DNA from: Cordylochernes scorpioides
Taxonomy: Eukaryota > Arthropoda > Arachnida > Pseudoscorpiones > Chernetidae
Direction: 5' to 3'
Length of the DNA: 64,000 nucleotides
NCBI GenBank assembly: GCA_030710605.1
Contig: CP092872.1
Coordinates: 5,657,947-5,721,946 of the forward strand
The notes beneath the pieces were generated by a model that did not search any database, had not been told where the DNA came from, and was given only the letters and a program-made list of their open reading frames with translations. Made by a program: the position numbers and the translations under genes. This document shows positions 1 through 36,461 of this stretch, piece after piece (position 1 is the first letter of the stretch; the number at the start of each line of letters is the position of its first letter).

Positions 1-1140
1 TTGGGACAATCCAACATACACAACACTAGCAAACCTCACAACAATGGACGCTACCTCACGGAGAAACCTAATTGTTGTTTGGAAGTTAGAATCCCAACTT
101 TGGGACAATCCAACATACACAACACTAGCAAACCTCACAACAATGGACGCTACCTCACGGAGAAACCTAATTGTTGTTTGGAAGTTAGAATCCCAACTTT
201 GTATCAATCCAACATACACAACACTAGGAAACCTCACAACAATGGATGCTATCTCACGGAGAAACCTAAATGTTGATTGGAAGTTAGAATCCCAACTTTG
301 GGACAATCCAACATACACCACTAGCAAACCTCACAACAATGGATACTATTTCACGGAGACACATTGTTGATTCGAAGTTAGAATCCCAACTTTGGAACAA
401 TCCAACATACACCACTAGCAAACCTCACAACAATGGATACTATTTCACGGAGACACATTGTTGATTCGAAGTTAGAATCCCAACTTTGGGACAATCCAAC
501 ATACACAACACTAGCAAACCTCACAACAATGGATACTATCTCACGGAGACACATTGTTGATTCGAAGTTAGAGTCACAACTTTGCGAAAACCCAGCATAC
601 ACCACTAGCAAACCTCACAACAATGGATACTATCTCACGGAGACACATTGTTGATTCGAAGTTAGAATCCCAACTTTGGAACAATCCAACATACACCACT
701 AGAAAACCTCACAACAATGGATACTATCTCACGGAGACACATTGTTGATTCGAAGTTAGAATCCCAACTTTGGAACAATCCAACATACACCACTAGCAAA
801 CCTCACAACAATGGATACTATTTCACGGAGACACATTGTTGATTCGAAGTTAAAGTCACAACTTTGCGAAAATCCAGCATACAAAACTCTAGCAAACCTC
901 ACAACAATTGGGAGCTACTTCACGGAGACATCCAAGTTTGGTACCACAGTTCGATCTCCAACTTTGGAAAATCTCTACAGGCATCAAACCTCACAACAAT
1001 GGTTGCTGCACCCAAGTTTTGTATCACAGTTCGATAGCTCCAACTTCGGCACAACTCTACCTATCAATCCTCACACCAAAGGGTGTTACGTTATACAGCC
1101 ACCTAGATGTTGTATCACAGTGTAACCTTGAAACAACCCA
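1..1140. repeat. 99-bp tandem array (contig A)
   Basis: Units of 99 bp (starts near 1, 100, 199, 298) pass into about 95-bp units from about 390, then decay after about 905. Each unit carries a CACAACAATGGA core and ends in a GAAGTTAGAATCCCAACTT block. Because 99 is divisible by 3, long open frames with repeating peptides appear on both strands; they are a by-product of the period and not evidence of a gene. A second copy of the array lies at 9175-10440. Confidence 0.9.
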
Positions 1141-1420
1141 ACACAACACAATCCCCTGAGGCACAAAGAGAGATGCCGGAATCATCCACGTGAGACCAAC
1201 CCCACCCGAGCCTTTCATACGCGGCTTCCAACCGCGCAGCTCTTCCGGACTCTGGAAGATAAAACCTTAATGGAGGTCCACCCTGGTATCCATCACCGAC
1301 GGCTATTCCTGATATATGGAAATAGAGAAGCCCCCTCAGCCTCCACTGGACACTCACAGGATAGCCTGGCCTTCTGTAGCCAAATGATTACCTTTAGAAG
1401 TCCTCGTGGCTTCATGAGAA
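1141..1420. repeat. Non-tandem module shared with 10560-10830
   Basis: This stretch follows the 99-bp array in both places where the array occurs and is closely similar there (a shared block around GAGGTCCACCCTGGTATCCA). It has no convincing coding content. It behaves as part of the larger repeated locus and not as an independent element. Confidence 0.7.
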
Positions 1421-2075
1421 GAAATAGAATAAATAACGGGTGTATATATTCACTCCCTTAGGTCCCAAACATCTAAGATCAGTGTATCAGCGTGTAGAAC
1501 CACCGTGGAATCCTCAGAGGAAGAAATAGAATAAATAACGGGTCTAAGATCGCCAAAAATCTAAGACATGTATTCCAGCGTGTAGACCCACCGTGGAATC
1601 CTCAGAGGAAGAAATAGAATAAAGAACGGGTCTAAGATCCCCAAACATCTAAGACCTATTTCCCAGCGTGTAGACCCACCCGTGGAATCCTCAGAGGAAG
1701 AAATAGAATAATGAACGGGTCTAAGATCCCCAAACATCTAAGACATGTATCCCATCATGTAGACCCACCCGTGGAATCCTCAGAGGAAGAAATAGAATAA
1801 TGAACGGGTCTAAGATCCCCAAACATCTAAGACCTATTTCCCAGCGTGTAGACCAACCGTGGAATCCTCAGTGGAAGAAATAGAATAAAGAACGGGGCTA
1901 AGATCCCCAAACATCTAAGACCTATTTCCCAGAATGTAGACCCACACGTGGAATCCTCATTGAAAGAAATAGAATACAGAACGGGTCTAAGATCCCCAAA
2001 CATCTAAGACATGTATCCCATCGTGTAGACCCACCGTGGAATCCTCAGAGGAAGAAATAGAATAAAGAAAGAACC
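1421..2075. repeat. 88-89-bp tandem array
   Basis: The marker GAAATAGAAT recurs at 1421, 1523, 1611, 1700, 1789, 1877, 1966 and 2054, giving 88-89-bp units after a first longer one. Each unit contains a CTAAGATCCCCAAACATCTA block. The matching place in contig B (10831-10940) holds about one unit, so the array differs in copy number between the two copies of the locus. Confidence 0.9.
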
Positions 2076-2570
2076 CGGACGTCGTGCAGAGGAAGGGACA
2101 AAGCTTCGTTACAGTCTGGCCTTTGTTCCTCACTGACCTGGACACTCCGGTCACTTCCTGGGACATCCTTGCCCACTTCTTCTATGCCCCAAGATGGTTC
2201 ATTCTTCAATGCCTCCTATCCGTTTCAGAATCTTCAATTTCTTCATCAATGGTTTGTATCGAAGTTTTCAAGAACTCAACAACTCGTGTGATCACGAGTT
2301 AATTACTTTGAAACTTTCTTTTCAAACCCAATCTCTTATTTTACATAGATCATCATTATCATTAATATAACAAACATGTGTAATAAAATTTGTAAAATAA
2401 ATTTACTGGCAATGTGTTTTTTTTTTTAAATAATATCATTAAATATTATCTCTGCAGACCTTACTACAATGATATAAATTATTAATGAGAATTTATATCA
2501 TTTCAGTAAAAGGTCTGTAGAGATAATATTCGATGATATTGCCACGTGGAGAATTAGGGAAGACCAACTT
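2076..2570. repeat. Shared module with a foldback hairpin
   Basis: The module matches B 10935-11449. It contains a hairpin with about 48-bp arms (2432-2480 and 2492-2539) around a short AT loop. The arms carry the sequence CAGACCTTACTACAATGA, related to the ends of the foldback MITEs at 24.8 and 41.2 kb (CTGTCCTTACTGCAATGG). The B copy of the hairpin is at 11306-11413. Confidence 0.75.
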
Positions 2571-4383
2571 ATTTATTTATTTATTTCATCTCAATTTGCA
2601 GGTGTTACATTCGAGCACAGCTCGCGAGTCACCTTGTCCAGATTATTTACACATGGCGAGTTGTAATGCTGGAGTGGCCCCCCGAACCTTATAGGAGGGC
2701 AGTTGTTGGGTGTTTGGCTGTCAGCTAGCCATTGGGTCCAGCTCGTCGGATTCGGTGGCAGAGGTCACCTTGATTTTGAACAATTTCTTGTATAGTTGGA
2801 TTTGATGATTTTTGAAATTGCGAGAATAGTCTTGTCGCAGAGTCTTGATAAATCTCTTCTATATTAGGCTGGTTGAGATCTTCTTTGAGAATTTTGTTTG
2901 AAAGATTGAATGGGGCTCCTATAGTGGTTCGTAAGCAAATCCTCATGAAGGCATCTATTCTTTTTTTATCCGTAGGTGTGATATATTTGCCCCAGACTGG
3001 TAGTGCGTACGTGATGATGGGTAGAATACAGGTTTTGTACAACGTGAATTTATGCTTTGTTGTTAAATTACTTTTGAAATTAAGCAGGCTTGATAGAGAT
3101 ATTTTGGCTATCTTTGCCTTTCTTATGGTGTTTTGGACATGTAGGTTAAATTTTAATTTCGAATCCAAAGTGACACCAAGATACTTGGCATGGTCGGCCC
3201 AACTAATAGTGCATGAGTTTACTGTCAAGTTGGTTTGTGGCATGAATTTTTTGTTATCTCTTGGGGAAAAAACTATTGCTTGAGTCTTAGTTGGGTTAAT
3301 GTCTAGTTTCCACTCATCGCACCATTTGATTATATCATTTAAGTAATTCTGAAGCTGAGTAACCAATAGGTTGACTGATTTAGAGTTAAATAAAATTGCT
3401 GTGTCATCTGCGAAGAGCTTAAGTTTACATTTAGAGTGCAGTGGGATGTCATTAATGTAAATATTGAAAGGGTAGGGTCCGAGGATAGAGCCTTGAGGTA
3501 CTCCAGTCTGGATTGGCTTTGGTTCAGTTATAAAATTTCCTTGCTTGACTGAAAATGTCCTGCCCTGTAGATAATTCTGCATAAATTTGATAATGTCACT
3601 TGGAAACTGGTGTTTTGTGAGTTTCTTTATAAGGCCATTATGCCAAACTTTATCAAATGCTTTCGCAAAATCTAGAAAGACAGCACCTACCACTTCCTTG
3701 TGGGATCTTCTTATCTGGATGTAGTCCAGAACTGCAATGAGTTGGTGAGTTGTTGAGTGCCCCCCTTCTAAATCCGAATTGCTGCGGGATGATGAAGTTA
3801 GAGTTGTCCAAGTACATCTGAAGTCTACGTAAAATAATTCTTTCGTAAATTTTGCCGATGGTGGGGAGGAGGCTGATAGGTCTTAGATCTTCAGGGGATT
3901 TAGCGGATTTTTTTGGAATTATGATAGCATGCTTCCAGACTTTGGAGTAGTAACACAAGTGCAGTGCGGCGTTGAATACTCCAGCTAGAAATACAATCCA
4001 TTTGATGGGAAGATTCTTGGCCATTTGCGGAGTGATATTGTCATGGCCAGGAGCTTTGTGGTTAGCTAAGTATTTAATCACTTCTTTGACTTCATTTGGT
4101 GTCGTCATTGTGAGCATTTTTTCTTGTTGGTGATTATAAGTTATATTTGGTTGGTCTTCTTCTTTTTCCTTGGAGAACTGGTTGGAGAAGTGTTCTGCAA
4201 GTTCATTTCCGATTTCTTTGTCGGTCAATAAGGTTTTGCCGTTCGTTACTAAACTGGAGATCCTTTCCGTTTTTTTTTTCCTGATGGGTTTTGTTTTTCT
4301 CCAGAAGTCCTTTGGGCTTGATTCAATCTTGTGTATGAATTGATTCCAGTTCTCGGTGGAGTCGGATTTGAGGGCTTTGTTAA
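2571..4383 (-). mobile_element. 5'-truncated Jockey-like non-LTR retrotransposon
   Basis: A minus-strand reverse-transcriptase element ends at 2571 with an (AAAT)n tail, seen as ATTT repeats on the plus strand. The 11-bp target duplication AAGACCAACTT flanks it at 2560-2570 and 4384-4394. Contig B has the empty site with a single copy (11439-11449), which confirms both boundaries. The 5' part is missing: the open frame already runs at the truncation point. The 3' UTR is about 150 bp. The insertion interrupts the CACGTGGAGAATTAGGGAAG repeat. Confidence 0.93.
2725..4383 (-). pseudogene. Jockey-clade reverse transcriptase, truncated and frameshifted
   Basis: The product is a non-LTR reverse transcriptase that would prime from nicked target DNA. 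The upstream frame (4383 to about 3690) carries early RT blocks: KAPGHDNITPQMAKNLP, PEDLRPISLLPTIGKIYERI and FIIPQQFGFRRG. After a single frameshift near 3690-3750 the second frame (to the stop at 2725) carries FLDFAKAFDKVWHNGL, GVPQGSILGP, the catalytic LFADDTAI box and KWCDEWKLDINPTKT. A thumb-like C-terminal part ends in HRIRRAGPNG. No endonuclease or ORF1 remains because of the 5' truncation. The motifs fit the Jockey clade. The frameshift makes it inactive. Confidence 0.93.
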
Positions 4384-4424
4384 AAGACCAACTTCGGGAT
4401 GAGACAACAATTTATTTCAGGCAA

Positions 4425-4524
4425 NNNNNNNNNNNNNNNNNNNNNNNNNNNNNNNNNNNNNNNNNNNNNNNNNNNNNNNNNNNNNNNNNNNNNNNNNNNN
4501 NNNNNNNNNNNNNNNNNNNNNNNN
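4425..4524. other. Assembly gap (100 N) between contigs A and B
   Basis: Exactly 100 N, the usual placeholder for a gap of unknown size. The left flank ends in CAGGCAA. In contig B the same sequence continues directly as GAACAAAC (from 11475), which is exactly how the reverse complement of contig C begins at 35773. Confidence 0.99.
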
Positions 4525-4554
4525 GTCACTTTTAATGTAAATCGCTTCGTACTA

Positions 4555-4965
4555 CAATTAAACCTGTCTATAGCGCCCCTTCTTGGGACTCACCAAAATA
4601 AGGTGCTATAAAGAGGGGGTGCTATAGATAGGTCACTTTTGTATGGTGTTATGCCTTGTTATAAATAAGGAAATACTCTTATCTTAAGTATTTATATCGC
4701 TTAGTTTTATTTATTTAACTATTTACAAGGCAACATTATCTAACAATCACAGCTATCCCGGAACTTCCGCCAGCCTAAGGTAAACAAAAACAGTAATAAT
4801 TTGATGATGATGATCACCTTACCGATAAATACGCCGGGTTGTCAGATGGTAACTTATTCTCAACACACTTTTAATGTAAATCGCATCGTACTACGTATTT
4901 AAAATCGGGCGCTATAGAGAGAGGAAGGCGCTATTTAGAGGGGGTGCTATAGACAGGTTTAACTG
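4555..4965. mobile_element. Pogo-like MITE with a CTGTCTATAGCGCC terminal repeat
   Basis: The ends are CAATTAAACCTGTCTATAGC on the left and its inverse at 4965, and the element is flanked by TA (4553-4554 and 4966-4967), as expected for Tc1/mariner/pogo elements. Internal copies of the GCGCTATAGAGAG motif repeat near both ends. No ORF is present. A shorter relative lies at 53638-53819. Confidence 0.8.
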
Positions 4966-5989
4966 TATAAATATACAAGATGTGGCGCTGAGTTTGTTGT
5001 TGACACACTTTAAAATTGGCGTTCAGCCAACTGAAATATTGGTAAAATAAATGATATTTTGATCCAATATATGTATTTTTTAATTAAAGATATATATAAT
5101 GTAACAACAGAGTAAAAGGTCATTGGTAAATAACAATAATTCTTATATTATTGTCACATTTAGAAATCTCTCTGAGAGAATTGTCATTTCAACAGTACCA
5201 CCCCTCTTCACCCCTCCCTGAAAAAATATATAATTTAATTTAAGAAAACTTATCAAATAAAATAAACCAATTTATATAGAATATATAGGCTAAATTAATT
5301 AAATATTTGAAAGTAACTATTATTTAATTAAAGAAACAGTTTCGTAGGCGACAAATACTCTTTTATTGCTTTAAAACACGAATAAAAGAATAAAACGCCT
5401 AGGTGGTCATCTTTCTATGTAATTATAAAAAAAAAAATTAAGATTAGTTAATATTTTTTCTTGTAGATGGCGCAAACCATCAGAAACATTCAGTTTCAAA
5501 ATTAGGAGATACTTTTCTTATTTCTCACTTTTATCATCTGATTCTGTACATTTTCTCCTTTTGTTCTATTTTCGTAGAACTAAAATTGTTTTTTATCATA
5601 TATTTCGGTTATTTAAAGCCATAAAAAGAAAAATCTCAAAGAAGTTGAATAAAAAGGGGTAAATAAGGAATGAGAAAATGTCTAAGATTTGTAGCCCAAC
5701 GTACCTTGGAGTTACTTTGTATAGAAGAAGATGAATAAAGGTGAAGTCGTAAAGTTTTACTGGAGGTCACTTGCAGTTATCATCATTATCATTTTTTACG
5801 AACCTCAGAGCTCATCTCTTTGCCATCTCCCAGAGTTTGTTTTCTAATGCCAGGGGTCTAATCCAAGGGATCGGCAAACATTTGATTCGGAAGAGTCAAA
5901 AATTACAATTTACAAAATTTTCAAAGAACCACAAAATGTTTTTAGTGCCAACAATAAATAGTATATCGATCTATTCTATATTCTTCTTA
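4966..5989. other. AT-rich stretch without a recognised gene
   Basis: I see no coding signal. Two fragments are recognisable: near 5020-5055 a piece (GCGTTCAGCCAACTGAAATA) related to the foldback at 27.6 kb, and at 5465 an AGATGGCG box followed by CAAACCATCAG, matching the family at 11.74 and 35.5 kb. Confidence 0.6.
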
Positions 5990-6464
5990 TCTATATATTT
6001 TTAAAACGAATGTATGTATGTGTGTGTGTGTGTCCTTTATGCCTGACCAAACCACTCATTGGAACGCCATGAAACTTTGGGAAGTTATTTAGTATAGTAC
6101 TGGGAAGGTTTCTAGCAAATAAAATTTTTGAAATAACTTTTCGCCTAAAAATAATCAAGATAAATATTCTAATTTATCTGTTATAATTCAACAATCTGCT
6201 CTAAATATTATCATGATGATTCGATGATTTTGTAATGTAGAAAATTAGGAAAGACCAAATTCAGGATGACACGGCAATTTATTTGAGACAAGAATAATGA
6301 TACAATTCCAAGGCAAGATACTATTCCTTTAACTTCCAATTACCGAGGGAACCAATTAATATTGATTTTATTCAACTTATCGAGTATTTTTCACTTTATC
6401 GAGAGATTCGTTAGACAAACCTTTACTCGGGTAAAACCCGGGCGAAGCCGGGTACATCCGCTAG
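5990..6464 (+). mobile_element. Non-autonomous Helitron
   Basis: It begins TCTATATATT after an A. It ends with a GC hairpin (CCCGGGCGAAGCCGGG), eight bases and CTAG followed by T. This is the standard Helitron 3' structure (hairpin plus CTRR, inserted between A and T). There is no Rep/helicase ORF. It is joined directly to the next Helitron at 6465. Confidence 0.8.
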
Positions 6465-6734
6465 TCTATATATATATATAAATGAATGTATGTGTGTGTG
6501 TGTCCTTTATGCCTGACCAAACCACTCATTGGAACGCCATGAAACTTTGGGAAGTTATTTAGTATAGTACTGGGAAAGTTTTTGAAAAATAATTTCTTGA
6601 ATATCTTGAATATCCTTAGAGTTATTTGCAGATTTGTAGATTTAACTCGAGAGCAGCGCCCCCATTGCGACAATGTTAACAAGTTTTTTTATCTATAAGT
6701 TTTATTATCACTTAGTTTATTATCTTAAAGATTA

Positions 6735-8058
6735 CGAGATGTGTTCAAAAAGTATCGCGACTTTTGTGTTTTTTCAAAAATTATTTATTTATTCATGAAT
6801 ACCTATCTTGTCCCCTTCAAATAATCCCCATGAGATATTATACACTTGTGCCAACGGTTTTTCCAAAAAGCACTTCAAAAAATCATTTTTTAAAATCTTT
6901 TTCAGCTTCTCCTTCGATGCCGTCTTTATCTCGTCAAGCGTAGCGTAACGTCGTCCTTTCATGGGCCTCTTCAGTTTAGGGAACAAGAAAAAGTCACAGG
7001 GGGCCAGATCTGGGAATACGGTGGCTGCGGCTTCATTAGTGTGTTGTTTTTGGCCAAAAGTCGCGCATAAGCAACGATGTGTGAGCAGGGGCGTTATCGT
7101 GGTGCAAAAGCCAATTTTTGTTCTTCCACAAATCCGGGCGTTTCTGGCGGATTGCTTCGCGAAAATTGCGCCTAACTTGCAGGTAATATTCCTTATTGAC
7201 CGTTCTACCCTGTGGCAAGAACTCATGATGCACCACGCCCCTGCAATCGAAGAAAACTGTCAGCAAAACTTTCACATTCGACCGAACTTGGCGCGCTTTT
7301 TTAGGTCTTGGTTCGTGCGGCAGCTTCCATTGAGATGATTGAGCTTTGGTTTTCACGTCATAACCATGAACCCACGCTTCGTCACCAGTTATGACCCTCT
7401 GGAGCAAATTTGGGTCGTCGCGGACAGAGTCCAACATCTCATTAGCAATGTTCACGCGATGCTGTTTTTTTTTTTTTTTTGTCACAATTGAGCAATTTTG
7501 GTACGAATTTCGCGGCGACTCGTCTCATGCCCAATTCATTGATAAAAATCGAATGGCAAGAGCCAATCGATATGTTTAGGTCCTCAGCAACTTCTCTAAC
7601 GGTGATTCGACGATTGGCCAATATCATTTTCTCCACTTCATTAATTTTTTCGTCTGTTGTTGAAGTGCTCGGGCGTCCGGCACGCTCTTTGTCGTTCACA
7701 TCTTCTCGGCCTTCTGAGAGCATTTTTTACCACCGATAAACGTTGCTTCGATCCAAGGTAGCTTCTCCGTATGCCACAGTCAACATTCGGAATGCATCCG
7801 CGCACTTAATTTCGTTTTTCACACAAAATTTGATACAGGTTCTTTGATCCATTTTTTTTAATAGGTAAAAATCGAAGACGATCCAAAACACCTGCAAGCA
7901 AAGCAGCTGTCAACAAATAAGTGAACATTCAAAATGGCCGAGCTTGTCGGCATAAGTGAGAGACATGAGTACCAACATAAAGCCACAAAAATATCGAAAT
8001 TCGAATACACGTAACCCGCGAAAATTCAAAAGTCGCGATACTTTTTGAACACACCTCG
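6735..8058 (-). mobile_element. Full-length mariner element (1324 bp)
   Basis: Inverted terminal repeats CGAGRTGTGTTCAAAAAGTA lie at both ends and are flanked by TA at 6733-6734 and 8059-8060. Length and ends are those of a complete mariner. A fragment of the same family lies at 42986-43268. Confidence 0.95.
6789..7852 (-). pseudogene. Mariner transposase, decayed
   Basis: A DD34D-type mariner transposase would excise and insert the element at TA. The start at 7852 (MDQRTCIKFCVKNEIK) opens the N-terminal helix-turn-helix region. An in-frame stop follows VYRW. A second HTH region (RRITVREVAEDLNISIGSCH) follows. A frameshift falls in a long A run near 7467-7480. The catalytic-domain motifs are then seen: VITGDEAWVHGYD (first Asp) and LLHHDNAPAHTS (second Asp). 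A second frameshift near 7040-7220 precedes FPDLAPCDFFLFP (third Asp). It ends at 6789. The defects make it inactive. Confidence 0.93.
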
Positions 8059-8704
8059 TATTTATCAAAAGTAAGATTTTCTACCTATTAATTGCGCACA
8101 AGTCAAAGTTAGTTTTATCATTTATCTACAACATATATATTGGGAGAATAGATAAAATGATGATTTTGTAATGTAGAAAATTAGGAAAGACAAAATTCAG
8201 GATGACACGGCAATTTATTTGAGACAAGAATAATGATACAATTTCAAGGCAAAGATACTATTCCTTTAACTTCCAATTACCGAGGGAACCAATTAATATT
8301 GATTTTAATCAACTTATCTAGTATTTTTCAAGGGACCGGGAAAAAATGTTCACTAGATAAAACGATGATTTTGTAATGTATAAAAAAAGGAAAGACAAAA
8401 TTCAGGATGACACGGCAATTTATTTGAGACAAGAATAATGATACAATTCCAAGGCAAAGATACTATTCCTTTAACTTCCAATTACCGAGGGAACCAATTA
8501 ATATTGATTTTATTCAACTTATCGAGTATTTTTCAAGGGACCGGGAAAAAATGTTCACTTTATCGAGAGATTCAAATTTACGAGTTTCAAATTATCAAAA
8601 TATATCTTTTTTTTTATAAGTTTATATAGAATTGTTTTAACAAATGTTCGTTAGACAAACCTTTACTCGGGTAAATCCCGGGCGAAGCCGGGTACGTCCG
8701 CTAG

Positions 8705-9174
8705 TACTTGCAAAAATAATATTTGCATATGGAACTATATAAAGAGCTTCACATCCGAAGAGCCGCATGTGGCTCGCGAGCCGCAGTTTGCAGACCTCTG
8801 GTCTAACGCCAAGTAGCGATGAAGAGATAGTAACATAGAAGATAAAACCATTTACGAATACTTTTTATTTTCAAATAAAACAAAAAACTCCCCTCTTACT
8901 ATCCTTACTACGATGAAAAATATTGGGAGGGGCCTGGCTCATCAATTATGAAGCTTCACAGTTGTATTGCCCGTTTGATCTAACATACCGCTTTTTAAAA
9001 CTTTATTACTGTTTTTTTTTTATTCAATTGGCTTTTATCGTTGAATTTGTAATAATTATTTTTGTCAATGTGTTTTGTTTCATATATCAAATATTCTTTC
9101 TACAGACCTTACTGCAATGATAAAAGTTATTGAATGAGAGGGCTTGGCTCATCTGTAGTGGCTCATCTCACCAA
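8705..9174. repeat. Foldback-MITE fragments in unassigned sequence
   Basis: Two pieces related to the 41.2-kb foldback family are visible: TATCCTTACTACGATGAAAA near 8898 followed by GGGCCTGGCTCATC, and ACCTTACTGCAATGATAAAA near 9107 followed by GGGCTTGGCTCATC. No gene is seen. Confidence 0.55.
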
Positions 9175-10440
9175 ATTGTTGATTCGAAGTTAGCCTCCCA
9201 ACTTTGGAACAATCCAACACAACACTAGGAAACCTCACAACAATGGACGCTACCTCACGGAGAAACCGATTGTTGATTGGAAGTTAGAATCCCAACTTTG
9301 GGACCATCCGACACACACAACACTAGCAAACCTCACAAAAATGGGCAATATATCACGGAGAAACCGATTGTTGATTGGAAGTGAGAATCCAAACTTTGGG
9401 ACAATCCAACATATACAACACTAGCAAACCTCACAACAATGGATTTCATCTAATGGAGAAACCTAATTGTTGATTGGAAGTTAGAATCCCAACTTTGGGA
9501 CAATCCAACATATACAACACTAGCAAACCTCACAACAATGGATTTCATATAATGGAGAAACCTAATTGTTGATTGGAAGTTAGAATCCCAACTTTGCGAT
9601 AATCCAACATACAAAACACTAGCAAACCTCACAACAATGGATATCATCTCACGGAGAAACATAATTGTTGGTTGGAAGTTAGCATCCCAACTTTGGAACA
9701 ATCCAACACAACACTAGGAAACCTCACAACAATGGATGCTACCTCACGGAGACAAATTGTTGATTCGAAGTTAGAGTCTCAACTTTGTATCAATCCAACA
9801 TACACAACACTAGGAAACCTCACAACAATGGATGCTATCTCACGGAGAAACCTAATTGTTAATTGGAAGTTAGAGTCTCAACTTTGTATCAATCCAACAT
9901 ACACAACACTAGCAAACCTCACAACAATGGACGCTAACTCACGGAGAAACCTAATTGTTGTTTGGAAGTTAGAATCCCAACTTTGTATGAATCCAACATA
10001 CACAACACTAGGAAACCTCACAACAATGGATGCTACCTCACGGAGACAAATTGTTGATTCGAAGTTAGAGTCTCAACTTTGTATCAATCCAACATACACA
10101 ACACTAGGAAACCTCACAACAATAGATGCTACCTCACGGAGAAACCTAATTGTTGATTGGAAGTTAGAATCCCAACTTTGGGAGAATCCAACATACACAA
10201 CACTAGAAACCTCACAACAATGGAGGCTACCTCACTGAGGCACTTAATTGATTATTGTAAGAGTTACAACTTTGGAACAATACAACACATACAACGCTAG
10301 CAAACCTCACAACAATGGGCGCTATATCACGGAGAAACCGATTGTTATTGGAAGTTAGAATCCCAAATTTGAGACAATCCAACACACAGCATCACAAACT
10401 TCACAACAATGGATGCTACCTCACAGAGACACCCAAGTTT
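9175..10440. repeat. 99-bp tandem array (contig B)
   Basis: This is the same family and orientation as positions 1-1140, with about twelve units including the GTTAGAATCCCAACTTTG block. The long open frames here are again an effect of the period. Confidence 0.9.
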
Positions 10441-11474
10441 TGTATCCCAGTTCGATAGCTCCAACTTCGGCACAACTCTACCTATCAATCCTCACACCAA
10501 TGGGTGTTACATTACACAGCCACCTAGGTGTTGTATCACAGTGTAACCTTGAAACAATCCAACACAATCCCCTGAGGCACAAAGAGAGATGCCGGAATCA
10601 GCCGTGTGAGACCAACCCCACCCGAGCCTTTCATACGCGGCTCCCAACCGCGCAGCTCTTCCGGACTCTGTAAGATAGAACCTTAATGGAGGTCCACCCT
10701 GGTATCCATCACCGACGGCTATCCATGATATATGGAAATACAGAAGCCCCCTCAGCCTTCACTGGACACTCACTGGATAGTCTGGCCTTCTGTAGCCAAA
10801 TGATTACCTTTAGGAGTCCTCGTGGCTTCATGAGAAGAAATAGAATAAAGAATGGGTCTAAGATCCCCAAACATCTAAGACATGTATCCCATCATGTAGA
10901 CCTACACGTGAAATCCTCAGAGGAAGAAATAGAATAAAGAAAGAACCCGGACGTCGTGCAGACGAAGGGACAAAGCTTCGTTACAGTCTGGCCTTTGTTC
11001 CTCACTGACCTGGACACTCCGGCCACTTCCTGGGACATCTTTGCCCACTTCTTCTATGTTCCAAGATGGTTCATTCTTCAATATCTCTTCTATCCTTTTC
11101 AGCATCTTCAATTTCTTCATCAATGGTTTGTATCGAAGCTTTCAATAACTCAATAACTCCTTTGATCACAAGTTAATTACTTTTTGAAACTTTCTTTTCA
11201 AACCCAATCTCTATTTTACATAGATCATCATTATCATTAATTCAACGAACATGTGTAATAAAATTTGTAACACATAAATTTAATGGGAATGTGTTTCTTT
11301 TCTGTAATATCATCAAATATTATCTCTACAGACCTTACTACAATGATATAAATTATTAATGAGAATTTATATCATTGCAGTAAAAGGTCTGTAGAGATAA
11401 TATTTGATGATAATGCCACGTGGAGAATTAGGGAAGACCAACTTCGGGATAAGACAACAATTTATTTCAGGCAA
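10441..11474. repeat. Module shared with contig A
   Basis: Collinear with A 1010-4424 apart from two differences: only about one 88-bp unit is present at 10831-10940, and the Jockey-like insertion is absent (empty site at 11439-11449). The hairpin copy is at 11306-11413. The shared sequence ends at the base matching the end of contig A. Confidence 0.85.
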
Positions 11475-12375: not shown

Positions 12376-12389
12376 GGTAGGATGGTAGT

Positions 12390-25440: not shown

Positions 25441-25449
25441 CGTGTATTC

Positions 25450-26815: not shown

Positions 26816-26879
26816 ATGTTAATATCTTATTTATTGTCCATAACTTTCTCTTTCTGTTTTATTTTATCTCTCTTCTCAG

Positions 26880-27580
26880 AGATAATGTATATAAAACAAT
26901 TATATACATGAATATATTACCAAATTAAACAAAAAAAAAACATATTATAACATCTTTGATTTGCATATTTGCAGCCATAATGAACTATCTCTTTTTCATT
27001 TCAGCACATAAAATTAAATATGCAAATAGAATAAATCCAAATGTTTTCGCCTTATATTTAATGTTACATGTAGAGATGAAGAAGAGAAACTTCGAAAGTT
27101 TTATTCCTATATGCAAATAAAACTCGGAAATAATCTATTCGATTGAAATTTTTCGTTTATATCTATATGCAAATAAAGAGAAATTGTTGAGATATATATT
27201 GTTTGTTTATTTTAGTAATTTGTGAAACAGGAGAAGACATCCTCATGTATATAAAAATAGAAGGCTATATGTTTGTTAATCTTATTCGACAAAACTACAG
27301 AAACAACCACTTGGAAATTTTACATATTGGTATAGCTGAAGACAAGATTGACATATAGATGAATCGATGTCTACAAATTAGTCCAATAAAAACACTTATT
27401 TGCATATTGTTGCATCATTTTTAATAAGCCCTACAATTATTACAAATATTCTATGATATTTTATTTAAAACAGATTATATACAAGGGTATCATTCCTTTT
27501 TATAGTTTCATTCCTTTCGTAAAATTGTACGTATGTACATATATGTATGTATTTGAAAATAGAGCAACCCATATTTAATT
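26880..27580. other. AT-rich, ATGCAAAT-rich stretch
   Basis: Many ATATGCAAATA-type octamers recur between about 26795 and 27400. A fragment starting TGTTGCATCATTTTTAATAA near 27407 resembles the 5' end of the LTR family at 18859 and 41001. No gene is seen. The stretch is absent from copy 1. Confidence 0.45.
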
Positions 27581-27586
27581 CATTAG

Positions 27587-27713
27587 ATAATAAAAAGGCA
27601 TATATTGGATTTAATAAAAGAGTTATTTTGCCAATATTTAAGCGTTCAGCCAGCCGAATTATTGGCAAAATAAATCTTTTATTAAATCCAGTATATGCCT
27701 TTTTATTATTATA
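27587..27713. mobile_element. Foldback element with about 50-bp arms
   Basis: The left arm (AATAAAAAGGCATATATTGG, then a block ending GCCAATAT) and its inverse (ATTGGCAAAATAAATC... to GCCTTTTTATT) surround a 20-bp spacer GCGTTCAGCCAGCC. A piece of the same family is at about 5020. The 131-codon open frame crossing it on the minus strand is not a credible gene. Confidence 0.75.
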
Positions 27714-28438
27714 TGTGTGTATGTAAACTGAATTTTCATCAATAGATTTTCTCAAAAAGTTACACAAGACAATTGTATAGATGGCGTGCACGAAGAATTT
27801 ATGTGTTTTTACTAGAGCAAGCTTTTTTTTTCTAGATAGCTTTCTTTCCTTTTCACACAAAAAAGTTATTTTCTGTCACGATTTAGGTTTCTCTTCTTCA
27901 GTTTGCTCAGGTACTGGTTTCTTGTTGCGCCTACTTTTCTATCTATAGCATTTATTTCTTTCTCATTTGGTCCATCGATTCAATTCTTATACTTTTTCCT
28001 ATAGTTCTCTTTGCCAGAAAAATATATGCAGACGATGTTCCATTGTTAAAAGAATGATTTTGCAATGCAGTAGTTCGCGAAAGAAGTGCGCGATTCGAAT
28101 GATGTTTTTATTTATTCAAAAGAACAAGCATTGATTTATATTTCATGAAAAAACGATTTTTAAATATTATAATTGTATAAAATTATGATTGTGTAATTTT
28201 GTAAAAAGGTTACGTTTTCAGACTTTCCAATGAGAAATACTCATTTAACTAAATTATTAAATGGCCTTTTCTTTTTCATAATTTATGCACCTTATCCCAA
28301 TACAATATCACATTTATACTATTTTTTCACATTGTGTCGCAGTGTCACGCAATTCTGGCCTTAACTACCCGTTTCATGATTTTTTCAGGATTCCTGAATG
28401 ACCTGTTTTTTGGTCGTTGAGGTACAGCTTGCACCACG

Positions 28439-28463
28439 CTGATGAGGGCCAACAGCCCAAAAC
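28439..28463 (+). ncRNA. Hammerhead ribozyme motif, one catalytic-core change
   Basis: CTGATGA, stem II GGGC-CAACA-GCCC, then AAAAC where GAAAC is expected, then GCGTA with a usable GTA triplet. Stem I pairs GTGGT (after cleavage) with ACCAC. The G-to-A change at the GAAA box should abolish activity. It is followed by a TTCTTGATTAATCAAGAA hairpin and an AGATGGCG box near 28562. Confidence 0.7.
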
Positions 28464-28734
28464 GCGTAAGTGGTTAGATTTTCTTGATTAATCAAGAATG
28501 GGTATTTGGCTAATTCTGTAATAATTAAAAATCAACGAGAATAGTTGATATTTATTCCGATAGATGGCGTAAGCAATCAGCAACTTTCAGTTGCACGATA
28601 AGGAGATGCCTTTTTCATGAATTATTTAAATTATGAAATAAAAGAATATTGCTATTACCAAGCGTACAAATCAGTCAAATAATAAAGGAAACCAAAGAAA
28701 AAATTGATATCTATGAAGTTAATCGAAAAAATTC

Positions 28735-28985
28735 CTCTGAAAAAAAGGTGCCTAAAGAAACCTTTAACTCCAACCGAAAGAAAGATAAAGGAAATGGTTG
28801 TTAGAGAGAATCCACTTTCTTAAAGGAACATTTTCACAATAACCAACGTACAACTTTCTACAGTTAACCGTGCTATTAGGAAAAAATCGGCTCAAAATAC
28901 GCAAAAAGGCGAAAGTTCATCTCCTCAAGCAGCACCATATTGAGGAATACAAGACCTGCAGCAGTGCTCTTTATGAAAAGTACCT
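28735..28985 (+). pseudogene. Tc1/mariner-type transposase fragment (copy 2)
   Basis: Encodes KKRCLKKPLTPTERKIKEMV, then RNIFTITNVQLSTVNRAIRK, with an in-frame TAA between the two blocks and a frameshift after QNTQK. It matches 17525-17800. The helix-turn-helix reading is by resemblance; no catalytic domain follows. Confidence 0.5.
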
Positions 28986-29087
28986 GGCTTTTAGACACTT
29001 GTGACATATTTAGTTTTTGGAACTGATCTGTTTATGAGCTTAATTGTTTTAATTAGGTTGTTCTTGTGTATATAAATTTCACTATTA

Positions 29088-29552
29088 ATATTGTTGTTGT
29101 TGTCGTGTCCAAAGAAGAACCTCAGATGTCTCCATGCATCTCTATTACAGCAATATCCACTATCTTGGGTGTGTAAAGCTGCTGTTCTGGGTCTATGTCA
29201 ATTTTCTGTTGTTGTTGTTGTGTCCAAAGAAGAGTCTCAGATATCTCCATACATCTCTATCACAGCAATATCCACTATCTTGGGTGTGTAAAGCTGCTGT
29301 TCTGGGTCCATGTCAATTTTCTGTTGTTGTTGTTGTGTCCAATGAAGAGTCTAAGATATATCCATACATCTCTATCACAGCAATGTTCTCTAACTTGGGT
29401 GTGTAAAGCTGCTGTTCTGGGTCCATGTCAATTTTCTGTTGTTGTTGTGTCCAATGAAGAGCCTCAGATGTCTCCATACATCTCTATCACAGCAGCAGCA
29501 ATGTCCACTATCTTGGGTGCGTAAAGCTGCTGCTCTGGGTCTAAGTCAACTA
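29088..29552 (-). repeat. 116-bp retroelement-end array, four units (copy 2)
   Basis: Reverse-oriented counterpart of 16759-17442. The sense strand of the peptide (MDPEQQLYTPK...HGDI, stop) is the minus strand here. It has four units against six in copy 1. Confidence 0.85.
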
Positions 29553-30013
29553 TTAATATTAAATATATGATTAGCTTTTACTTTTTCCTCTTTTCCACTC
29601 ACAGAGACTCCGGGGTAAATCCATATATAAGGAATTTATTTTCCTCCAATTTACCCAGATTAATCTATTTATTAACTTGATTGTCTTAATTAAATTTTCC
29701 TGTATATAAATTTGATATTACCTTTATGTGATTAGCTTTAAAAATTATAATAATAACAATGTTTTTATTACTGGTATTATTACTGTTATTCCTACATGTA
29801 CCTTACATTTCTACTTGGCGAATCTATATAAGATTAAAAGGTCTTAATTTATTTTCTAGAATTACTGTGATGTTTTTTTTTTTTATAAAGAAGATTTTGA
29901 AAACTAAAATGTGGATAAAAATACTAAATTGAAATAGTACTGGGATCAGAAGATGCCTTTTTTTCTTAATAAAAATGTAGAAAAGTGTAGCACCAAGTTT
30001 ACACAAATAAATA

Positions 30014-30082
30014 GTCGGTGGATGAGAGGGTAACACGCTCGATTCCCGACAGTTATGAACCGGGATTGAATCCCGCGTTAAA
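30014..30082 (+). repeat. tRNA-like SINE head, second type (copy 2)
   Basis: Reads GTCGGTGGATGAGAGGGTAA, CGATTCCCGACAGT, GGGATTGAATCCCGC, the best tRNA-like match in the window. The poor acceptor stem and AT-rich flanks argue against a working tRNA gene. Confidence 0.65.
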
Positions 30083-30545
30083 ATTTGTTTAATTCTATAT
30101 ACAGTTACGAGCGTCATGCGTTCTTAATAATTCTTCATCTCTGTCACCGTTTGCTTTTTTTTTTGGAATTGCGCTCTCCTATTGGTTGGCTACGATCACG
30201 CCACCTTTGCCCCCCCCCCCCCCTCAATCGCTTTTTGGTTTTTGTAACTATTGTGTTGGAGCGGGTCGCTCCTTAAATAATCTATTGTTAACAATACCTC
30301 ATTATAGGTCCGCAAATATCGAAAGTATAGGTATGTAGCTTTTGTACTATTAAGGTGTATATATATATACACATACTTATGTATATATATATACACATAC
30401 TTATGTACATATGTAAGTACTATTATCATTAGGGATATATATGTCACATCTACATAAATGTAGATATAATACTATATACTCTACTAATATATGCATTTAT
30501 ATAAGGCGCCAATTTATAATTGTAACAAATAGTATTTGAATAAAA

Positions 30546-30592
30546 ACATTCAATCGGGTAAAACACGGGCGTTGCCCGGGTCATTCGGCTAG
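30546..30592 (+). mobile_element. Helitron 3' end, second family (copy 2)
   Basis: ACGGGCGTTGCCCGGGT hairpin, TCATTCGG, CTAG followed by T. It matches 15754-15801. Confidence 0.7.
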
Positions 30593-30756
30593 TATGTGAA
30601 TAACCTTCATATATTATTGATTGTTTCAATTATTATGAACTAGGTTGCTCTTGCTGAGCGGTACCTATTAATGTGATTTGAACCAGAGAGAGAAGTTTAC
30701 ACATTAGTTTCCATTCATTTTACTCTCCAGAATGTCTTCATCCTTTTATTTCATTT

Positions 30757-30832
30757 AATGGGAGTCGGTGGTCTAAACTGTTGGTTTTCGATCGTTACGA
30801 CGACCCGGGCTCGAATCCCGAATTGGGCACTA
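30757..30832 (+). repeat. tRNA-like SINE head (copy 2)
   Basis: GGGAGTCGGTGGTCTAAACT through GGCTCGAATCCCG; the box B is a near-consensus match. Confidence 0.6.
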
Positions 30833-30910
30833 TTTTTATAATGATAATAATTTTAAAAAATGCTTCAATGGCCCCCGATTCATGCAAAAATACAACCCCA
30901 CCAGCGATTA

Positions 30911-31530
30911 CAAGTAGTCAAAATGGGCTCTTGCAAATTTGTAAGTATAAAAGTCGAACTGATTTTCACATGTGTAGACATGTGGTTCACTTACAGTAAA
31001 AGCAGTCGCTAACTACCCACCATGATTACCATGGCCTGTACCACGTGTACTAGGGATAATAATATTTCTTTTAATACATATTCCAACTAATTCTTCTTCA
31101 TTTTGCTCTAGCCGAGTGCAAGTAGACAAAAAGGGCTCTTGCAAATTTGTAAGTGCAAAAGTCGAACTGATTTTCACATGTGTATGTGGTACACTTACAG
31201 TAAAAACAGTCGCTGGGTATAATCACCAAGATTATTATGGCCTGTACCATGTGTACTAGGGATAATAATATTTATTTTAATACATATTCCAACTAATTCT
31301 TCTGAATTTTGCTCTAGCCGAGTGCAAGTAGCCAAAATGGGCTCTTACAAATTTGTAAGTACAAAAGTCGAACTGATTTTCACATGTGTAGTCATGTGGT
31401 ACACTTACAATAAAAGCAGTCGCTGGGTATAACCACCATGATTATTATGGCTTGTACCATGTGTACTAGGAATAATAATATTTATTTTAATACATATTCC
31501 AACTAATTCTTCTGCATTTTTTTTTTACCT
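30911..31530 (+). repeat. Tandem triplication of the SINE-like repeat (about 207-bp unit)
   Basis: Units begin CAAGTAG at 30911, 31119 and 31325 and run through CACATGTGTAGACATGTG, GGCCTGTACCACGTGTACTA and TACATATTCCAACTAATTC. The other copy of the locus has a single unit (15245-15470). Confidence 0.85.
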
Positions 31531-34150
31531 GATGACCTTCAACATGCTTCGTTCCACTTCCAATCCTTCCTTTAGATTTTATTCAAGAGAATTGATAATA
31601 AGGTGGTTTCTCCGATGTTTTTTTCTTGTACAGTAACAACTTTCTAACATTTCGCTTCTGTAACAGCCGTTTTCTAGCACAATTTTCATCGCAGTAAGGA
31701 TAGTAGAAGTTTTTTTAATGTGTAAAAGAAACATTCATGGTTTCATGTATTCCTTTCATATATATAGATGTTACGTTATTGTGCCTTATAAACAATTAGG
31801 TTACAAGTTCAGTATAACAATGAGAGGGCATTATACAAGCAACAATCAATCATAACTGATAAGATTGTATTTAGTTCAACAATGTTCTAAAACAATGAAA
31901 TTCTACCATATCTTTTCAATCTGTATCTACCCAGAACTCTCAACTCTGGCATTCTTCAAAACATTCGCAGTGGCAGAGGCGCCATATTCATTGTACATAG
32001 TATCATGCATATATATATATGTTATATAAAAATATTATTTTATTTTAAAATATATAATTTCATAGATTCAAATACTCTGTTAAATCGAACGCCAGAGGTC
32101 ACGCTTACCCTATAAAACTCATTGTTGTTGTATCCCGATGGCCGGCTCAAAACTTTTAAGCTAGGCAGTACTTTAATCAAATTATGTTTTTTTAATATAT
32201 ATTCCATAAGTTCAATTAAAGCAATATCTGATCAAGACTATTATTTTTATGATTATAGTTTCAAGAATTTTAACCACACTGCAAAACAATATCGTAACAT
32301 ACTCATGATCTAAATTCAAGCCGGAAATCTCATTCATCTTTATTCTATTTATAATATATATATAATTAAAAATAAAAGAGGCATATCCTGACCAGGCTCA
32401 GAGTATGACCACATTCAGTAGAATAGAAAATCTACTTGTAGATGTGAAGAATTCTAAAGAAATTTGGAGCACTGTAGTATATATATGATCACATAAAATA
32501 TTCCAGAAAACTTTGAAAAATCTGATTTTTCAGGATATGACGTCTTTCTTTCAATGGCCATCAGTATCTTAATGAAGGAATATTTTTCAACATTATTTCT
32601 ATTAATCATATAAAAAAAAATTCCGCACAATTTATTTATCACCAGTTGCAAACAAGACACGCTATATCCGATCTGGATAATTGCGCGTGAAACTATTTAC
32701 AATAATTGTAGTAGAGTAGGTAACAGAATTGTCAAAAAGAAAATAAACAATTAAGAGCATTGAATAAACATATACATTAAACAAATAAGCAACAAAATAA
32801 GCACAATTAGTGGTCTATAGATATAAATCTGATGATTGATCACTGATGAATGATGCGCCAAAATTTTCAGTTTACTAATTATAGCAATTCGACTTATATC
32901 TATAAGAAAGATCGCTGAATGGTTACATTCTTAAAATGACAATGTTCTTTCAATGGCATCAACTGAAGAGTCTATTTGGAGCTGTCAACGCTTTTATAAT
33001 TGACCTTCTCATCTTTTGGTATTTTTAATATTTCAAGTTTTTTACAGTGTGTGTTATATATTAATTATATTTAATAAAGATTTACGGCTTGATTTTTTAT
33101 CATCTTGAGTATTATGCTATGGTAATGCAGTCGTGGTTAAAATCTTGAAAGTATAATAATAATAAAAACAGTTTTGATCAGAGATTGCTTTAATTGAACA
33201 CATGGAATATATATTTTAAAAAACAATTTGATAAAAGTACTGCCTGGCTTAAGGCGTAAGAATAGAAAAATGAAATACTTATTTACATTGTAATCTTTTG
33301 TTTTCCTTGTTCTACTCGCCTTAAGCATAATCCTCAAGATGATCAAAAATCAGGCCGAAAACTTTATTAAATATAATATAAATAATATTTTTTTGGGGTT
33401 TCAGACAATAACTCTGAAAGATATTACAGTGATTTTTATTGAAGACATACGAGATAACCAAGTGTAAACAGCCTCTGTCTACTTGAAAAAAAAAAAAAAA
33501 AAAAGAAGAAGAACGGTGACATAGACCTTTTCATGTGTTTTCAGCAAGAAGTTTTAGGATAATATTAAATGTATAACCTCGTTATATAAAAAGAAAAGAA
33601 GCTTTATTACTTAATATGTTATTGTATTTGGGTTGATAGACATGCTTATAGAACCTACACACCAAACAATAGAAAACTGTAGAAAACTTGAAATATTAAA
33701 AATACCAAAAGTTGAGAAGGTCAATTATAAAAACGTTGACAGCTCCAAATAGACTCTTCAGTTGATGCCATTGAAAGAACATTGTCATTTTACGGATGTA
33801 ACCATTTAGTGATCTTTATTATAGTCATATAAGTCGAAATTCTATAATTAGTAAACTGAAGTTTTTGGCTTATCAATCATCAGTGGGTCTCATCTCAAAT
33901 ATTTTCACCTATAGTTCACTAATTGTGACAATTTGACAATTAAAAACAGTTTATTGACATCTAGTCAACGGTCAAAAAAGATTTACAAAGTTTAGAACAG
34001 TATAGGAAATATATACACCTGACGAGGCCTTCACTGAAGGTACGTCTGGATCCTATCAGGAGCTTAGAATCGTCTTGAGTTCGGACAGTCCGTTGTGGGT
34101 TATGGAATCCTTGTCCCGAGCATGCTCGGTTACAGTGTTAAGGAATTTGA
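31530..34150. other. AT-rich shared sequence with copy-specific insertion
   Basis: Mostly counterpart to 13.0-15.2 kb, with about 1 kb (32400-33400) that copy 1 lacks. Within it, blocks near 32780-33060 are repeated in inverted form at 33620-33900. A Tc1-MITE internal fragment (CAATAACTCTGAAAGATATT) is at 33408. No gene is recognised. Confidence 0.5.
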
Positions 34151-34163
34151 CAAGAATAATCTT

Positions 34164-34402
34164 CTAAAGAGACAAGGGTCGCCTCTCCCGTCAAAATAGA
34201 CGTCTAAACCAGACGCCATCTATTGACCGTCGCCGCAACTAGCGGCCTCGGGTTGGTGACAAAGCCACAACACCAGCTTTTGGCAAACTGAAAAGCGTCC
34301 ACCTAGAGACTATGGTTTCGGGCTAATGGCCCTCGTCAGTCTATTTTGACGGGAGAGGCGACCCCTTGTCTCTTTAGATCAATTTCCTCCCGGCAAAATC
34401 TT
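34164..34402 (-). mobile_element. Hammerhead-bearing insertion (239 bp) with 13-bp target duplication
   Basis: CAAGAATAATMTT is duplicated at 34151-34163 and 34403-34415; copy 1 has the empty site near 12866. Inverted arms of about 40 bp (CTAAAGAGACAAGG outward, GTCAAAATAGAC inward) lie near both ends. It contains a hammerhead motif and an AGATGGCG box (34215, minus strand). No ORF. The layout resembles small retrozyme or Penelope-derived units. Confidence 0.78.
34308..34339 (-). ncRNA. Hammerhead ribozyme, intact core and cleavage site
   Basis: The minus strand reads CTGACGA, stem II GGGC-CATTA-GCCC, GAAAC, loop CATA, GTC. Stem I pairs TCTA (after the cleavage site) with TAGA just before CTGACGA. 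Stem III is minimal: A-U and C-G around the CATA loop. All consensus core residues are present. It is a type I arrangement, with stem I open to the flanks. Confidence 0.85.
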
Positions 34403-34882
34403 CAAGAATAATATTGTGTTCAGCCGAGAGTTGCGCGAGGAGATTGTCCCTAAGATTGGGGTACAGGACCACAAGCACGACATTGTCCAAGACCATCCCT
34501 CGCTTATATAAAGGCCTCAAGATAAACTCACTAATTGTGTAGAAATTTATTTCATATAAATATAGAAATAATGTTGAATTCATTAAGATATTGTAAATAA
34601 ATTGTGAGAGAATTTGTGGTTGTTTTAAAAAAATAGTTTAGATGGCTCAAGTTTTCTCAGCTGCCGAGGAAAGGAAATTATTTGTTCAGGAAGCTCTGAA
34701 AAGGGAGTTGTGTAAACAGCTATTGTTCCCAGAGTTCATTCTTCCGTCAACATACATCCCCTGTATTTACATATGCTCTGTGTTACAGGATGTCTGTACA
34801 ACAGAACAACTGTGTTAGTTGGTCATCTCTCTTGAGCTAGGGATAATTTGTCACCACTGATGGCCACCACTACCATCCTACC

Positions 34883-35064
34883 CCACCAGCGAGTGCAAGT
34901 AACCAAACGGGGCTCTGGCACATTTGTAAGTGCAAAGTCGAACTGCTTTCACATGTGTAGACATGTGGTGCACTTACAGTAAAAAAAAAAGCAGTCGCTA
35001 ACTACCCAACATGATTATCATGGCCTGTACCACGTGTAATAGGGATAAGCAAAAAAAAAAAAAA
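34883..35064 (+). mobile_element. SINE-like retroposon (182 bp), copy 2
   Basis: Target duplications ACTACCATCCTACC (34869-34882) and ACTACCATCCTTACC (35065-35079). It starts CCACCAGCGAGTGC and ends in a 14-A run. It is inserted into the coding sequence of a non-LTR element whose C-terminal part follows. Confidence 0.85.
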
Positions 35065-35250
35065 ACTACCATCCTTACCGGTCACGGCCAAGTTCTGGCA
35101 GATCTCTGCCATAGAGATCCAACATGTCCTCACTGCCGGGAAGAGTCACAGACTGTGGATCACCTCCTTTTCTCCTGTCCAGCTTTTATGTTACACAGAC
35201 TACAGACACTGCTTGGAGTACAAGACTTCAGTCCTGTCCCTACTTCCTGA
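35065..35250 (+). pseudogene. Non-LTR retrotransposon C-terminal fragment
   Basis: The frame reads TILTGHGQVLADLCHRD, then TCPHCREESQTVDHLLFSCP, ending in a stop at 35250. The Cys-x2-Cys...His-x4-Cys arrangement after a TGHG motif is the usual C-terminal end of Jockey/I-type polyproteins, downstream of RT. The upstream part is replaced by the SINE. The B copy is frameshifted at the zinc motif. Confidence 0.75.
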
Positions 35251-35773
35251 CTCCCTGCCGCCCTGGAACTACCTGGTTTACCGCGGCAATCTGCCCTCCC
35301 TCCCCATGACTGGACTTCTCTTCTAGACTGTACCTGTACAACCCGGGTAGTTGGCGATTTACGTTCCAGGGGCCTGGGTTATCTCTATTTTCTCTCTTGT
35401 CTTTAATTGCATCAACGATCCTGTTTGGAATCCTGGATATAATCATGGAAACTAAGAAAAAGCATATCTTGATTGTGAAATTGAACGTTAATGATGGTTT
35501 GCGCCACCTATCGGAATAAATAAATGACTAGTTCGTTATAAAAAACTAGTTCTTTTCAAACCGAGCTCTAATTTATATATATTATGATTTAACAAATATG
35601 TGTAATAAAATTTGTGACATAAATTTACTGGCAATGTGTTTCTTTTTCAATAATATTGTAACAAAGTATTTATTATTTTATTAACAGAGTATTATTTTTT
35701 ATGTTTATATTTTGCTATACTCTGTACACTTCCCTCTTTTGCTTATCTTTTGTTTATCACTCATAGTTTGTTC

Positions 35774-35873
35774 NNNNNNNNNNNNNNNNNNNNNNNNNNN
35801 NNNNNNNNNNNNNNNNNNNNNNNNNNNNNNNNNNNNNNNNNNNNNNNNNNNNNNNNNNNNNNNNNNNNNNNNN
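35774..35873. other. Assembly gap (100 N) between contigs C and D
   Basis: Exactly 100 N. The left flank, read in reverse, continues the end of contig A without a missing base. The right flank is the inside of a pogo-like element whose other end type is at 22823 in contig B. Confidence 0.99.
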
Positions 35874-35979
35874 TATCGCATTTTAGTATAGTGCGATAAA
35901 AAAAAAAAAAACTTATTTGGAAAACCGTGTAAAAGCCAAAACGTGTAAAACAAGTACCGTGTAAATCGGGGAATAGGTG
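35874..35979. mobile_element. Pogo-like element, right part
   Basis: Carries AACTTATTTGGAAAACCGTG, a block unique to one side of the 23176 element, and ends CGGGGAATAGGTG before TA (35980-35981). With the left end at 22823 it would make one element interrupted only by contig C and gaps. Confidence 0.75.
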
Positions 35980-35981
35980 TA

Positions 35982-36173
35982 CGCGAATTCGCGTCCTCGA
36001 TTTCCAAAATTAAATAGAAAATCACCGGCGGCCGACACGAATTCACATCCACCAGGATCTTGTCCCAAACCTTCTTTGGTATCTATCAGTGGGTTGGTGA
36101 GAATCTCAGCTGACCTAATGTACCTGTGAAACGTGGGCAAGAACGCGAATTCGCGTCTCTCGGGTCGAAAATG
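35982..36173. mobile_element. piggyBac-like MITE, right half
   Basis: Continues from the TA with CGCGAATTCGCGTCCTCG and ends GGGTCGAAAATG before TTAA (36174-36177). It is homologous to the right part of the complete element at 23487 and complements the left half at 22762. Confidence 0.75.
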
Positions 36174-36461
36174 TTAAAAGAAACTTTCATACTTAAATGT
36201 TTTTTTTTTCACATATATAGATGGCGTGTTATATTGCCCTATAATTAATAAAGAATAAAATGTAGAAATGTCTACAACTGAAATATCAAAATTCTGGAAG
36301 GGCGAGAAACTTACAACTGGAGAGGAAAGGACAAAAGTCTTTTTTATATATATTTTCCCTCAAGGAGAAAGGTGGAACGAAAAATTCTGGTAACTATAGG
36401 GACCCCCAACAATTATCTTTTCTTTAAAACCAAACATTTAAAAAATATATTTTAATATATA

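Follow-up and report, generated by a model that had tools for sequence, protein, structure and literature searches.

An apparent 24-kb palindrome in a Cordylochernes scorpioides scaffold is probably two versions of one locus interleaved by scaffolding

Introduction

A stretch of 64,000 nucleotides from a scaffold of the chernetid pseudoscorpion Cordylochernes scorpioides, referred to here as the window, appears to contain a 24-kb palindrome. When the window is aligned to itself, positions 11475 to 22823 match positions 23677 to 35773 in inverted orientation. Symmetry of this kind could belong to the genome or to its assembly, and the structure of the window bears on the choice. The window (GC content, 37%) consists of four contigs, which we call A (1 to 4424), B (4525 to 22980), C (23081 to 35773), and D (35874 to 64000); the start of the window cuts contig A, and its end cuts contig D. 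The three gaps between the contigs (4425 to 4524, 22981 to 23080, and 35774 to 35873) are each exactly 100 N, and they make up all three joins, A/B, B/C, and C/D.

A preliminary description of this DNA had proposed that A followed by the reverse complement of C forms one coherent path, that B followed by D forms another, and that C, an alternative haplotype or else a segmental copy, had been put in the wrong position and orientation. Further analysis of the window makes it quite probable that the palindrome is a scaffolding artefact in which two versions of one locus, following the paths A plus reversed C and B plus D, were placed in the order A-B-C-D. Contig A (plus strand) would then be the left part of copy 1 and contig C, which is 12.7 kb long and reversed in the scaffold (minus strand), its right part. 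Contig B (plus strand) would make up the left part and the centre of copy 2, which contig D (plus strand) continues.

Results and Discussion

With tandem arrays masked, the inverted match between B and C resolves into eight collinear blocks of 334 to 1749 bp with 87 to 94% identity, which is far beyond chance. The match is not seamless. About one-fifth of the unmasked overlap lacks a partner of at least 250 bp (1,920 of 9,863 unmasked bases in B 11475 to 22822 and 2,561 of 11,029 in C 23677 to 35773). Aligning B and C globally paired unrelated private segments and gave 84% identity, so this alignment was replaced by a collinear chain and six hand-chosen blocks. The chain retained 25 of 46 matches; its 8,660 aligned columns are an overcount, because one unit in C was counted repeatedly against a 14-copy array in B, and this figure was not used.

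The reverse complement of C is collinear with B 11475 to 22822 and then with D 35980 to 36310 (plus strand), the homologue of C 23081 to 23680, which holds the right part of a transposable element described below and its right flank. Reversed C had been described as running along B to about 22820 and on into a D homologue ending at 36303, within a few bases of the limits found here. A direct match joins A to B around B 9170 to 11474, with A 1 to 1538 corresponding to B 9396 to 10941 and A 1957 to 2570 to B 10828 to 11444.

The ends of A and C meet at one point on the map of B. The last 40 bases of A (4385 to 4424) and B 11435 to 11474 differ at a single base. Read from 35773, reversed C takes up the match to B at 11475, with zero overlap and zero missing bases. 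The shared map point is therefore B 11474 to 11475, and the earlier claim that A stops at the equivalent of the first of these bases and reversed C begins at that of the second was confirmed to the base. The last 42 bases of A sit in a dispersed repeat. The end of A can nevertheless be placed at B 11474 because its identity to B 11434 to 11474 is 97.6%, compared with 78.6 to 83.3% for the five other listed copies of the repeat, and because A 2070 to 2570, immediately to the left of a retrotransposon in A, matches B 10942 to 11444. For two independent contig ends, the chance of meeting so exactly would be on the order of one in ten thousand, since B and C share approximately 11 kb of sequence.

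A second junction involves the end of B and the start of D. Contig C contains an uninterrupted 260-bp element (23483 to 23742, minus strand) with TTAA at both ends and inverted terminal repeats, TTAACACTTTCGACC on both strands; it is too short for a piggyBac transposase and is piggyBac-like in its ends. The left part of this putatively non-autonomous element lies at B 22758 to 22822 (plus strand), where it stops at the TA of another insertion, and the right part lies in D. Together, the B and D parts align to C continuously with a single TA, and the uninterrupted element in C is thus the empty site of that insertion.

The insertion belongs to a type with a TA target duplication and inverted terminal repeats, of which C has a 272-bp copy elsewhere. 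The type is pogo-like in its ends, and these features are common to Tc1/mariner elements at large. The left end of the insertion is B 22821 to 22980 (plus strand), with a terminal repeat at 22823 to 22845. The right end is D 35874 to 35981 (plus strand), which has a terminal repeat at 35957 to 35979 (minus strand) and matches C over D 35882 to 35981 (C 23267 to 23174). The two ends of C's TA-flanked element are distinct, one continuing GGTAGATACG and the other GGTACTTGTT. Contig B has the GGTAGATACG end and contig D the GGTACTTGTT end, oriented as one insertion, like C's own copy. Because opposite ends occur at one target site in the orientation expected of one insertion, a single TA-flanked insertion appears to be split between the end of B and the start of D at a site that is empty in C.

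The preliminary description had B stop and D start inside the same piggyBac-like and pogo-like elements. Opposite ends were indeed found, and the target sites (TTAA and TA) and the inverted ends agree with the two labels; B, however, leaves the C copy beyond 22878. Up to that base, from 22821, B is identical to one end of C's TA-flanked element, and the last approximately 90 bases of B match nothing else within the window. The insertion in B is not a plain copy of the element in C, and the join from B to D crosses a gap. A second, inverted terminal repeat is present at B 22866 to 22888, about 20 bp past the first.

These two junctions bear on the possibility that C is truly inverted in copy 1. 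In such a polymorphic inversion between highly diverged haplotypes, B alone would be out of place, and the breakpoints would fall at the equivalent of B 11474/11475 and near D 36310, with a small inverted overlap at the right end. A clean breakpoint would likewise leave A and reversed C abutting with zero bases between them, and the scaffold does show C in the inverted orientation. However, contigs from an inverted haplotype should read through the breakpoints, not end exactly on both sides of one, and D would follow C, yet the shared insertion ties D to B, and D overlaps C by about 330 bp. Proximity-ligation scaffolds also tend to orientation errors, according to PMC4772016. We therefore consider an inversion very unlikely.

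Each path also carries insertions that the other lacks. Contig A has a private jockey-like non-LTR retrotransposon of 1813 bp (2571 to 4383, minus strand) for which B has the empty site at 11434 to 11444. The target-site duplication, AAGACCAACTT, is at 2560 to 2570 and 4384 to 4394. The element, which lies antisense and has an (ATTT)n tail, is apparently truncated and its reading frame is broken; at the cut-offs used, nothing else in the window matched it. RVT_1 was detected in two overlapping open reading frames (ORFs) in different frames, with E-values of 6e-31 and 1.3e-6, the latter just below the cut-off, and the reverse transcriptase ORF at 2725 to 3882 (minus strand) matches a C. scorpioides protein at 97% identity over 90% of the ORF. 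Conversely, the 272-bp TA-flanked insertion of C (23174 to 23445, minus strand, both TA counted) is private to C, with an empty site in D. A further private insertion in C, of about 240 bp (34164 to 34402, minus strand), lies between 13-bp flanks that agree at 12 of 13 bases; its empty site is in B near 12855 to 12867. The exact abutment of A and C, the opposite insertion ends in B and D, and these reciprocal private insertions with empty sites together indicate that A plus reversed C and B plus D are two collinear versions of one locus.

Tandem arrays differ markedly between the two copies as well. A 58-bp unit is present in 14 copies in B (20964 to 21764) and as a single unit in C (24724 to 24811). 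An 89-bp unit is present in about seven copies in A (1464 to 2069) and singly in B (10834 to 10941), flanked there by a direct repeat of roughly 20 bp. To judge from their sequences, these differences look like the birth or loss of minisatellites between versions that are otherwise about 95% identical.

Divergence was estimated from substitutions in aligned blocks. In six hand-chosen blocks, B and C differ at 376 of 7115 positions (5.3%; range, 4.8 to 6.3%), with 206 transitions, 170 transversions (ratio, 1.21), and 71 indels. A and B differ at 28 of 497 positions (5.6%) in one block. The value for C and D is 32 of 326 (9.8%), above that for B and C (376/7115; Fisher p 0.001), and the excess sits in the TTAA-flanked element, with the flank at 3.9%. 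Relative to C, the part of this element in B differs at 8 of 65 positions (12.3%) and the part in D at 26 of 197 (13.2%), compared with 16 of 349 (4.6%) and 5 of 127 (3.9%) in the outer flanks. The similarly raised divergence of the B and D parts suggests that they are parts of one element copy.

The TTAA-flanked element as a whole (22758 to 22822 and 35980 to 36177; C 23483 to 23742) is about 13% diverged between the copies, with flanks at about 4%. This excess could reflect mutation at a raised rate, gene conversion by another copy, or loss of the element by excision and its re-insertion at the same TTAA.

The divergence, the gaps, and the A/C abutment led us to reject a true large palindrome, an inverted duplication with a short spacer, as scarcely credible. 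It would explain the 24-kb inverted match, and large palindromes with a short spacer do occur on some sex chromosomes. Like them, the window shows an inverted repeat with a short spacer. Unlike them, it has arms that are 5% diverged and carry private insertions, three gaps, and a third partial copy that abuts exactly. The arms of conversion-maintained palindromes are kept near-identical, and those in the window differ by 5.3% substitutions and the 71 indels of the six blocks. There is no contiguous centre of symmetry; the centre is a 100-N gap at which both B and C enter non-matching sequence. A true palindrome would require that the third partial copy, A, stop by coincidence at the base at which C stops, it would have to accommodate gaps at all three junctions, and the insertion ends in B and D would need a separate explanation.

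A chimeric fold-back read, in which a missed sequencing adapter makes an inverted copy, was rejected on the same divergence, gaps, and abutment and is an equally implausible source. False chimeric palindromic PacBio sequence is among the causes of false duplication reported in PMC9516828. However, a fold-back copy should be nearly identical to its template, and here the arms differ by 5.3%, with a transition/transversion ratio of 1.21, private insertions, and a gap between them.

The number of copies was assessed over bases 1 to 36310 from matches of at least 85% identity and at least 250 bp, with 13 mainly tandem-array stretches masked; the stretches were chosen by hand, and the first (1 to 2069) also includes some non-array sequence. 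Under these settings, 17,428 bases have a match in one other place, 263 in two, 12 in three, and 12,010 in none. Among the 17,703 bases with a partner, therefore, all but 275 have it in one place only. The unmatched bases include 3,947 in B to the left of the overlap with A, the partner of which would lie outside the window, 1,813 that are the retrotransposon (LINE) of A, and the 1,920 and 2,561 inside the overlap of B and C. When the length threshold was lowered to at least 60 bp, multi-place matches within the overlap covered 665 of the 9,863 unmasked bases in B and 1,000 of the 11,029 in C, as dispersed repeats would be expected to give. The window thus presents two collinear paths in which hardly any base occurs more than twice.

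A second duplicated segment in D was considered. Besides a shared 115-bp tandem array, candidate sequence there, such as 41 to 45 kb against B, gave short hits in mixed orientation that we read as dispersed repeats, and the candidate was rejected.

Interleaving of two copies is thus supported by the A/C abutment, the insertion shared by B and D, the similar divergence of A from B (5.6%) and of C from B (5.3%), and the single partner of most bases. The same observations bear out the earlier proposal that each of the two paths is coherent. The further proposal that C is the contig out of place is upheld with respect to two interleaved copies; its choice of C is symmetric with a choice of B, because B interrupts the path from A to C just as C interrupts the one from B to D.

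Such an arrangement would arise if both diverged versions of a heterozygous locus were retained as contigs. We infer that A and reversed C probably started as a single contig, which a proximity-ligation scaffolder that corrects misjoins divided at one base, and that the pieces would then have been placed again with 100-N gaps, the 12.7-kb contig C in the wrong orientation. A scaffolder of this type fits because the gaps are 100 N, the abutment is zero-base, and a short contig is flipped. Gaps of 100 N are also written by other scaffolders. HiRise is an example only, one whose known behaviour the window resembles in its exact 100-N gaps, lossless cut, and flipped short contig (PMC4772016 and PMC5982815). 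According to PMC5982815, HiRise gaps are arbitrarily set to 100 Ns. According to PMC4772016, HiRise cuts a contig in the middle of a segment with low support, or at either end of that segment if it exceeds 1000 bp, and orientation errors are more frequent in Chicago HiRise scaffolds. For C. scorpioides itself, a long-read, proximity-ligation assembly is announced in PMC8136511.

False duplication between diverged haplotypes is well documented in PMC9516828 and PMC8081667, and the former states that false duplications mostly have an assembly gap between the copies. In the window, the duplicated pieces lie on one scaffold with gaps between them (4425 to 4524, 22981 to 23080, and 35774 to 35873). 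The heterotype false duplications described by the Vertebrate Genomes Project (PMC8081667 and PMC9516828) are alike in that two diverged versions lie on one scaffold with gaps between. The locus in the window, which is judged here from its sequence, differs from them in that the pieces are interleaved as A-B-C-D and one is inverted, an arrangement that imitates a palindrome.

The two versions are most likely the haplotypes of a heterozygous diploid. A divergence of 5.3% in substitutions is a high value for two alleles carried by a single animal. Together with the many private insertions, it would be easier to understand if the copies were paralogous loci. On that reading, a segmental duplication at about 5% divergence would have been interleaved by the same scaffolding error. 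The use of inbred animals for an earlier C. scorpioides draft genome, as stated in PMC8136511, points in the same direction. However, interleaving at one position in a scaffold suggests that the copies had similar contacts, which is most easily explained if they are allelic or very local, and for 17,428 of the 17,703 bases that match elsewhere in the window over at least 250 bp, the partner is a single one. On balance paralogy seems unlikely, though it carries appreciable weight. The two-haplotype reading requires no real palindrome, and the apparent one is most likely an ordinary assembly artefact and not a biological feature.

In a search for host genes, the Pfam scan covered 7 of the 11 ORFs with a length of 130 amino acids or more; three had transposon domains reaching or near the cut-off, and the other four had no match reaching or nearing it. 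No tRNA was found in the window with ARAGORN. Remains of a mariner-type transposase, probably frame-broken, lie at 6789 to 7524 (minus strand), where two ORFs overlap and one of them contains Transposase_1 (6e-18).

An ORF in D (38884 to 39771, minus strand) is without a Pfam match of its own and resembles transposon proteins. Two C. scorpioides proteins match it at 98% and 99% identity, over 74% and 70% of its length, respectively, and the match with the best E-value is an unnamed protein that is 77% identical over 99%. With the reverse transcriptase match in A, these identities point to C. scorpioides or a close relative as the host. Its relatives combine the end of a UvrD-like helicase with an endonuclease/exonuclease/phosphatase domain, and we take the element to be Helentron-like. 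Because the ORF is also similar to a protein of the moth Tuta absoluta (83% over 73%) and to proteins of the leafhopper Homalodisca vitripennis (90 to 92% over 44 to 46%), the element is a candidate for horizontal transfer.

Many tandem arrays with periods of 58 to 118 bp are present in the window, including long minisatellites at 46765 to 48984 (59 bp, 37 copies) and 57753 to 59478 (74 bp, 24 copies). A 66-bp array at 59758 to 60063 is composed of truncated U6 snRNA, with three units covering model positions 1 to 63 or 1 to 59, and its last unit is a single U6-like match of full length that lacks a T run at its end. By its sequence, this array would be a U6-derived minisatellite. A U4 snRNA match at 63666 to 63815 scored 59.2 bits against an Rfam gathering score of 46.

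Implications

Left uncorrected, the scaffold would imply two things that do not exist, duplicated sequence and a palindrome of 24 kb. The locus also illustrates that interleaved contigs can be assigned to their paths without reads, by means of private transposon insertions and the matching empty sites. If the two versions are alleles, then haplotypes of C. scorpioides would differ by about 5% at this locus, with frequent differences in transposons and tandem arrays, and more false duplications would be expected in the same assembly.
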